Positions 34,834 to 36,003 of a DNA stretch of 40,891 nt are shown here, piece by piece. The notes beneath the pieces were generated by a model. That model did not search any database, had not been told where the DNA came from, and saw only the letters and a program-made list of their open reading frames with translations. The stretch comes from a virus. Both the position numbers and the translations under genes were made by a program. The stretch's first letter is position 1; every line of letters begins with the position of its first letter. The stretch spans positions 1-40,891 of IMG/VR virus record IMGVR_UViG_3300032286_001195. The stretch is one strand, 5' to 3'.

Positions 34834-35160
34834 TTGGGCAAGCATTACTTATTAAATCTTTACGGTTGTTCTTTTATACTTTTAGATAATTGCCATTATC
34901 TCATAGAATTACTTGAAAGAGCGGCTGTAGAGAGTGGTGCAACGGTAGTTCAAACAATTTATAAAAAGTTTGACCCTCAAGGAGTTACGGCACTTTGTTT
35001 ATTATCAGAAAGTCATATTAGTATTCATACTTATCCAGAATTAGGTAACTGTTATGTTGATATTTTTACTTGTGGAAATTGCAATCCAAAGATTGGCGTT
35101 GATATGATTATCCAAAAACTAAATCCAGAATCATATAATATTAAATATGTTGATAGATAA
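34834..35160 (+). CDS. speD: S-adenosylmethionine decarboxylase proenzyme
   Basis: 108 residues, class 1 bacterial type. The self-cleavage site LLSESHISIHTYPE is intact, including the Ser that becomes the pyruvoyl group and the His, and VDIFTCG keeps the proton-donor Cys. It makes decarboxylated AdoMet for spermidine synthesis; speD is a known cyanophage accessory gene. The start is a TTG (MGKHYLLNLYG); an in-frame TAG lies two codons upstream, so no ATG is available. AGGA is only 1-2 bases before it, which is unusual and may reflect a base insertion. The C-terminal third differs from that of the speD remnant at 35884. Confidence 0.85.
   Translation: MGKHYLLNLYGCSFILLDNCHYLIELLERAAVESGATVVQTIYKKFDPQGVTALCLLSESHISIHTYPELGNCYVDIFTCGNCNPKIGVDMIIQKLNPESYNIKYVDR
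35059..35075 (+). repeat. Direct repeat, first copy (in speD)
   Basis: Identical 17-base sequence GATATTTTTACTTGTGG, encoding DIFTCG, also at 35893-35909. The copies are 834 bases apart and bracket the rest of speD and the GIY-YIG endonuclease. Confidence 0.85.
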
Positions 35161-35201
35161 ATAATAACGCCTTTAAAGTTCGGCAAAACCTAAGGCATTT
35201 T

Positions 35202-35231
35202 GGGGGAGAAAAATAAATCTCCTCCATTTTT
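35202..35231 (+). terminator. Terminator after speD
   Basis: Stem GGGGGAGA / TCTCCTCC (35202-35209 with 35218-35225, one G-T pair), 8-base loop, then ATTTTT. Confidence 0.8.
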
Positions 35232-35233
35232 AA

Positions 35234-35241
35234 TATAAATA
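35234..35241 (+). promoter_or_regulatory. Late promoter before the second GIY-YIG gene
   Basis: An exact TATAAATA. Transcription would start near 35247, inside the right arm of the inverted repeat, so ATG 35257 or 35266 would be the late start codon. Confidence 0.55.
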
Positions 35242-35244
35242 TAA

Positions 35245-36003
35245 ATGCCGAACTCAATGAATAAAATGTCTAAAGGGATAATTTATTGCGCTCATTGTAT
35301 TGTTACTGGCAAAAAATACATTGGACAAACAGTTAATACTTTAAATATTAGAAAAAATAAGCACAAAAATACATCAGTGAGATTTAAAAAAAGAAATAAG
35401 TTTTATTCTGCAATAAAAAAATATGGTATCAATAATTTTATTTGGGGAATAATTGAAGAAGTTGATGTGAAAAGAATGGATGAAAGAGAAAAATATTGGA
35501 TAGAACACTTTTCTACTTTTGTATATGGATACAACTCAACTTTGGGCGGTGAAAAATATTGTAATCCTAATTGTTGGAAAGAATTTACAATAATGAGTCC
35601 AACTGGAAAGATTTATAGTAACAAAAATATTAGTAAATTTTGTAGAGAGAATGATTTATCCCAAGGACATTTATCTTCTGTAATTTCTGGAAAATTGAAG
35701 TCACATAAAGGGTGGAAACTTCCTGAAACTAAAATAAAAAAAAGAGATTTTAGTGCTGTAATGTCTCCTGATGGGCAAGTGTATGTTATTAAAAACATAT
35801 CACATTTTTGTAATGAACATAATTTGTGCGTAAGTCATTTAGTAAAAGTATTGAATGGAAAAAGAAAACACCATAAAGGATATGCGGCAGTAGATATTTT
35901 TACTTGTGGCGATCATACGCAACCAGCAAAAGCTTGCGAATATATGATAGATGCACTAGAATCTAAGAAGCCAAATATGACTATTGTAACTAGAGGCATA
36001 TGA
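35245..36003 (+). CDS. GIY-YIG homing endonuclease fused to a SpeD C-terminus
   Basis: 252 residues from ATG 35245; ATG 35257 or 35266 may be used. The nuclease core is typical: [19 protein letters not shown], then the Arg helix and the Glu region [14 protein letters not shown], with N-x-TLGGE after it. Two tandem NUMOD1/IENR1-like DNA-binding repeats follow ([17 protein letters not shown] to HKGW; [18 protein letters not shown] to HHKGY). The last 40 residues, beginning [20 protein letters not shown], are not nuclease: they are the C-terminal part of a SpeD. The enzyme therefore seems to have landed inside a speD gene, while a complete speD stands upstream. Confidence 0.88.
   Translation: [252 protein letters not shown]
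35884..36003 (+). pseudogene. speD: Displaced 3' end of a second speD
   Basis: About 39 codons, in frame with the endonuclease, read [20 protein letters not shown] and then MIDALESKK to TRGI. This is the standard C-terminal third of SpeD, including the active-site Cys. It is not a copy of the end of the upstream speD (which has GNCNPKIGVDMII), but shares the 17-base DIFTCG block. It lacks the self-cleavage Ser, so alone it cannot be an enzyme. Confidence 0.85.
35893..35909 (+). repeat. Direct repeat, second copy (in the speD remnant)
   Basis: Same 17 bases as 35059-35075. Recombination between the copies would delete the endonuclease and leave one chimeric, complete speD. Confidence 0.85.

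Follow-up and report, generated by a model that had tools for sequence, protein, structure and literature searches.

A foreign speD gene and a GIY-YIG endonuclease in place of part of a resident speD in T4-like cyanophages

The window, which is the whole stretch of DNA analysed here, is an IMG/VR-type virus record of 40,891 bases that we read as a fragment of a T4-like cyanophage, and the closest isolate relatives of its SpeD are Synechococcus phages. It raises the question of how an endonuclease ORF came to end in the C-terminus of SpeD directly behind a complete speD gene. The arrangement itself was recognized in the original prediction, and both Pfam and relatives without the insert (empty relatives) agree that the last 40 residues of the endonuclease are a SpeD C-terminus; by Pfam, the upstream speD is complete. 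The upstream gene is called speD-B here and the resident gene of the empty relatives speD-A. The locus contains the following features:

34356..34780, + strand: resident left flank, with an HNH ORF and the speD-A leader, ending with the AT of the lost start codon
34766..35900, no strand: exchanged unit, a tract of 1135 bp with zero differences between the window and L086; flanks 5-8% diverged
34781..34798, no strand: filler of 18 nt, TCCCTGATGTGATTGCTG, source not found; present in all lineage I cassettes and absent in lineage II
34799..34833, + strand: cassette leader, common to all five cassette-bearing records
34834..35160, + strand: speD-B, encoding a complete foreign SpeD (Pfam AdoMet_dc, 113 bits, whole domain)
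35245..36003, + strand: GIY-YIG endonuclease ORF with two NUMOD-like repeats and an in-frame SpeD-A C-terminus (Pfam)
35880..35883, no strand: right junction ATAT, where the endonuclease end AAAGG ATAT meets speD-A CA ATAT / GA ATAT
35884..36003, + strand: speD-A remnant, the last 39 codons and stop (98.3% nucleotide identity to L101, 97.5% to L103)

The locus in occupied and empty phages

The 252-residue product of the endonuclease ORF has a GIY-YIG domain (PF01541) at residues 10-91 (27.6 bits, above cut-off), two stretches similar to I-HmuI_NUMOD-like (PF22083), the best at 172-213, and a match of residues 211-251 to positions 67-107 of the AdoMet_dc profile (38.7 bits, above cut-off). The GIY-YIG catalytic positions G11/Y14, Y25-G27, R36, H40, E82 and N97 are invariant in seven relatives. 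With a catalytic domain, a NUMOD-type module and presence or absence at one site, the ORF has the characters of a free-standing GIY-YIG endonuclease. SpeD-B is 108 amino acids long and retains the catalytic-motif residues ESHISIHTYPE and TCG. The SpeD tail of the endonuclease is not there by chance, because empty relatives encode the same 40 residues at the end of an ordinary speD.

Related loci were metagenomic contigs throughout; the empty ones were retrieved from IMG/VR with the endonuclease as first query and the native SpeD as second. Five records are occupied, in which the cassettes form lineage I (window, L086 and L097) and lineage II (L087/L098 and L099), and at least ten are empty; the endonuclease has its full length in three of the five. 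The empty relatives L101/L094, L102/L095, L093, L103 and L104 contain one ordinary speD, speD-A, at this locus. They are collinear with the window through the HNH ORF to 34780 and again from 35880 onward (95% for L094 over 35880-40891). On the left, 34356-34780 is collinear with L094/L101/L103 at 90-92% nucleotide identity and homology stops at AAACGAAAT, inside the speD-A start codon (AAACGAAATG in empty phages versus AAACGAAAT-TCCCTG in the window). Between these points, the 5' part of their speD-A shares 59-61% of nucleotides and about 49-51% of protein residues with 34834-35058. The upstream speD is therefore not the resident gene with a new end; together with the cut start codon, this means that some 1.1 kb took the place of about 225 bp of speD-A. 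As read from these alignments, the event is a replacement that includes the start codon and not a plain insertion.

Phages of both lineages, occupied and empty alike, have the HNH ORF (34382-34753) immediately before speD. This ORF has the same position in the more distant speD-A phages L110, L111 and L113, and in the donor-type phage L089 it is found upstream of a glutaredoxin gene, with speD-A missing there.

Donors, junctions and movement of the cassette

Other phages encode the cassette genes in unfused form. In L088/L010, L089/L009, L090 and L187, which we call donor-type, a whole speD-B is followed by an unfused endonuclease, which ends with KGYFAINNER-stop in L088-L090, and the gene order is DUF6433 gene, speD-B, endonuclease, ThyX gene. 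The same DUF6433-ThyX locus with speD-B, and with the endonuclease missing, is present in L012-L014. Whole speD-B genes ending in NCNPKIG..KYVDR thus occur at other places with or without an endonuclease. The two kinds of speD belong to different loci, since speD-A in the lineage of the window lies upstream of glutaredoxin and speD-B in the speD-B phages downstream of DUF6433. Isolate phage records contained no close speD-B (best 57% amino acid identity) and no endonuclease with a SpeD tail.

SpeD-B of the window is 80% identical to the unfused donor copy of L088 over 108 residues, and dN/dS between the window and L087 is about 0.2. Donor-type genes start with ATG, whereas in the window ATG is missing, an in-frame TAG stands just before the gene and TTG at 34834 is the sole possible start. 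Its Shine-Dalgarno sequence is ill-placed, and together with the TTG start this makes expression of speD-B uncertain. Still, the intact motifs and low dN/dS suggest that the complete gene preserves SpeD activity.

At the right junction, the endonuclease end reads AAAGG(A/T)TAT across copies. The fusion is in frame and cost the unfused endonuclease only its stop and about eight residues; the reading frame is kept in all three full-length fused ORFs, and each fused tail matches the speD-A of its own lineage. The left join differs between lineages. In lineage I it is at the speD-A start codon, plus the 18 filler bases, which have one mismatch in L097 and among the fetched loci were present only in copies of the same cassette. 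The exact 27-mer of the leader that follows occurs in only four IMG/VR contigs besides the window, each a cassette bearer. In lineage II (L087/L098, L099) the join is within AAAATAAATAA, which is also found in the empty lineage II phages L105 and L107 and, with one difference, in L106, L108 and L109. Lineage I cassettes begin with AATAAATAA too, so the cassette may have passed from lineage II to lineage I, although such low-complexity sequence is a weak clue.

The cassette was exchanged as a unit. The identical tract shared by the window and L086 overshoots the cassette by only 15 bp on the left and 17 bp on the right, and the chance of zero differences over 1135 bp is about 5e-26 at a uniform divergence of 5%. 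In the right flank, L086 is 99.4% identical to empty L101 and the window 98.0% identical to empty L103. Between lineages I and II, nucleotide identity is 94-95% for speD-B and 81% for the tails; it is 72-77% for the alignable parts of neighbouring genes and about 65-67% for the right flank as a whole. The corresponding dS is 0.19 for speD-B, 0.31 for the endonuclease and 0.8-1.0 for the tails. In a tree of the right flank, occupied and empty phages alternate within close clades and the state switches five times, as often as five occupied records allow, which fits repeated gain, or gain followed by replacement with empty alleles. Cassettes have recombined among themselves as well, as the mosaic speD-B 3' ends of L097 and L099 show. 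In L097 (contig of L007) and L099 most of the endonuclease was deleted, with deletions ending at about 35839, and speD-B and the tail were kept. Such loss is what one would predict for a useful speD-B beside an endonuclease of no use. Taken together, these comparisons make it almost certain that a speD-B/endonuclease cassette first replaced part of the locus, was then exchanged as a unit and has decayed in some phages.

Possible mechanism, alternatives and known systems

The best explanation, to which we assign a probability of about 0.7, is a homing endonuclease cassette that supplies a working substitute for the gene it targets and uses the captured tail as right homology arm. A cassette of speD-B and a free-standing GIY-YIG endonuclease entered T4-like cyanophages that had a different speD, speD-A, elsewhere in the genome. 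Comparison with empty and donor-type phages shows that it replaced the leader and the first two thirds of speD-A, and that the right join fell in frame within ATAT, so that the last 39 codons of speD-A took the place of the final residues and stop of the endonuclease. The complete speD-B would have kept SpeD activity, as its motifs and dN/dS suggest. The cassette then spread within and between at least two lineages of phages, and every copy ends in the speD-A tail of its recipient; two phages later deleted the endonuclease and kept speD-B. The spread would depend on cleavage of speD-A by the endonuclease during co-infection. The break would then be repaired from the cassette, for which the captured tail and the speD leader/HNH side may provide homology arms. 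An endonuclease-driven spread is suggested by the intact active site, the shape of the tract and the known behaviour of such enzymes. The part of speD-A most similar to speD-B is the block that codes for the active site (CLLSESHISIHT.PE; 78-86% nucleotide identity over 66-101 bp), which is a plausible target region. More tentatively, the cassette may be a natural 'home-and-rescue' element, whose endonuclease cuts speD-A and which carries a complete, diverged speD-B that it cannot cut. It could then enter a useful gene at a non-orthologous locus and leave the function intact, and the captured 3' end of the victim would be a right homology arm that fits every speD-A phage.

The most serious alternative is ordinary recombination, in which the block entered the speD-A locus by illegitimate recombination and spread by homologous recombination and selection for speD-B, with the endonuclease as a non-cutting passenger. 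Both junctions are of the microhomology or filler type, phages often recombine and an exchange tract could arise without a cut. Cassettes without endonuclease occur in both lineages (two of five) and may move, and the mosaic 3' ends of speD-B show recombination between cassettes. However, the exchanged tract nearly coincides with the cassette and has an intact endonuclease inside, and occupied and empty phages alternate within close clades. We therefore consider this explanation rather unlikely, though worth keeping in mind.

The captured tail could also have been retained for a function of the endonuclease, for instance SpeD binding or protein stabilization, which would agree with the in-frame fusion in all three full-length ORFs. 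It seems improbable, as the tail tracks the speD-A allele of the recipient and persists in L097 and L099 without the endonuclease. Private tail changes are few and mostly change the amino acid (K to M in L086, K to N in L097, A to T in L087), and a structure model of the fused ORF has a mean pLDDT of 62, with most of the tail below 55 and thus of low confidence. Under the best explanation, the tail would be mainly a passive homology arm.

According to the original prediction, the element inserted within the resident speD at the codons before VDIF, kept the 5' part and brought only a replacement 3' end. The prediction was right that the resident gene lost its 3' end to the tail, which is 98.3% identical to empty L101. 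Elements of the predicted type are known in fungal mitochondria (PMC3630166), so the idea has precedents. The incoming DNA did supply a replacement, but as a whole foreign gene instead of a new end on the resident 5' part. That 5' part is gone, as the 59-61% nucleotide identity to empty relatives shows, the speD-A leader and start codon were lost with it, and other loci have whole speD-B genes with this 3' end. The expectation that relatives without the insert have one speD, whose 3' part matches the remnant and whose 5' part matches the upstream copy, was hence half borne out: the 3' part matches and the 5' part does not. The junction lies at 35880-35883, with speD-A beginning at or just before codon 35884, and not before VDIF. 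A 17-base block shared by both genes (35059-35075 and 35893-35909) exists as described, but it encodes the conserved VDIFTCG motif and is present in 9 of 79 uninterrupted speD-A loci as well, so it was rejected as a crossover footprint. No intact speD genes stand side by side and the uninterrupted speD of empty relatives ends like the remnant, so neither of the outcomes named in the prediction as refuting it was seen; insertion with retention of the 5' part is refuted for this locus and has next to no probability. Least of all do we believe in two tandem speD genes of which the second was interrupted later, since the tandem order of the two sequences in the window is opposed by 19 long records with exactly one speD each (0/19 with two) and by the single speD of empty relatives at exactly this place, which rules out a tandem duplication.

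Two other types of element were rejected. No Rfam intron family reached the gathering threshold in the window and speD-B has its own stop, which argues against a group I/II intron or IStron. A target-rebuilding integrase does not fit either: 34356-36345 encodes no integrase, the replaced segment has disappeared and the 17-mer reflects a conserved motif.

The nearest precedents come from fungal mitochondria, where mobile endonuclease ORFs with foreign C-termini were described for atp6, atp9, cox2 and nad3 of Glomus (Beaudet et al., 2013, PMC3630166) and, as cited there, for atp6 of Allomyces macrogynus (Paquin et al., 1994); in Rhizopus and Mortierella mitochondria such ORFs likewise displace the resident C-terminus (PMC3630166). 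As in those cases, the cassette arrives with coding sequence of the host gene, the gene stays whole and the native C-terminal part lies downstream of the endonuclease, here at 98.3% nucleotide identity to an empty relative. The defining combination of a resident 5' part with a foreign 3' part is not found, since the upstream gene is foreign throughout. The fungal ORFs replace only the 3' part and create a hybrid gene, whereas the phage cassette brought a complete foreign gene from a different locus and its free-standing GIY-YIG endonuclease now ends in the displaced part. A second comparison is intronless homing by Seg/Mob endonucleases, as for SegF/gene 56 and SegG/gene 32 of T-even phages (PMC2988022), which shares the free-standing GIY-YIG gene beside a host gene, co-conversion of the neighbour and presence or absence in relatives. 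Those enzymes act on the same gene at the same locus, in contrast to the distinct speD from another locus found here, and in the cyanophages the resident 3' end joins the endonuclease ORF; cleavage was shown for T-even phages, while cutting of speD-A is a prediction. The cassette may thus work like T-even intronless homing and the gene-replacing ORFs of fungal mitochondria combined. HEG-islands (Barth, Dunham and Seed, 2023, PMC10448857) also have a cargo gene near endonuclease genes that is far more alike between phages than the remaining genome. They are defined by flanking endonucleases on both sides, whereas the left HNH ORF here lies outside the exchanged tract and is also present in empty phages. 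In an incomplete literature search, we found no paper that describes such a cassette for speD or cyanophages.

With donor, empty, occupied and decayed states all sampled, the locus shows how a free-standing homing endonuclease can relocate a whole auxiliary metabolic gene, even where the swapped-out version is distantly related (about 49% protein identity in the replaced part). This is a concrete way in which host-like metabolic genes could spread among cyanophages in a patchwork, and a natural counterpart, open to testing, of engineered gene drives equipped with a rescue copy of the targeted gene.

Expression signals and other features of the window

Three predicted elements lie between speD-B and the endonuclease or overlap the endonuclease start:

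35177..35254, + strand: hairpin covering the endonuclease start codon, with a 9-bp outer stem AGTTCGGCA (35177-35185) / TGCCGAACT (35246-35254)
35201..35226, + strand: terminator-like hairpin after speD-B, the sole terminator-like site found in 34600-36200
35234..35241, + strand: TATAAATA, a match to the T4-type late promoter in the hairpin loop

The larger fold is also predicted in L087, L088, L090 and L009, and the inner, terminator-like stem is kept in L088 with different bases. All compared copies keep the terminator-like hairpin, TATAAATA in the loop region and a start-codon stem of 9-10 bp. Exact matches to TATAAATA occur seven times on the + strand of the window and zero times on the - strand. 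The endonuclease probably has its own late promoter, and the hairpin would cover its start codon on read-through transcripts. I-TevI, SegB and MobE have a hairpin in the start region, which late transcripts avoid owing to the position of a late promoter (PMC2988022). The predicted combination here is similar, except that the stem holds the start codon and not the Shine-Dalgarno sequence. The leader 35158-35275, which is kept in unfused relatives, represents a free-standing cyanophage case of predicted I-TevI-like control.

Relatives of this endonuclease were found at L092:725-1408 and L188:1975-2616, with porin-like and ferritin/DPS-like neighbours, and so the family is not confined to speD. 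Within the window, the end (1973-2104) of ORF 1508-2125 matches the second NUMOD-like repeat of the endonuclease (34% over 44 residues), and this ORF probably encodes another homing endonuclease. Immediately left of the speD locus, 32146-34355 is a variable region: its tandem LamG-domain genes are missing from L094/L095 and arranged otherwise in L086. A PhotoRC-II RNA motif (57.8 bits) is present at 27899-27989, between ORFs 25314-27845 and 28032-28586.
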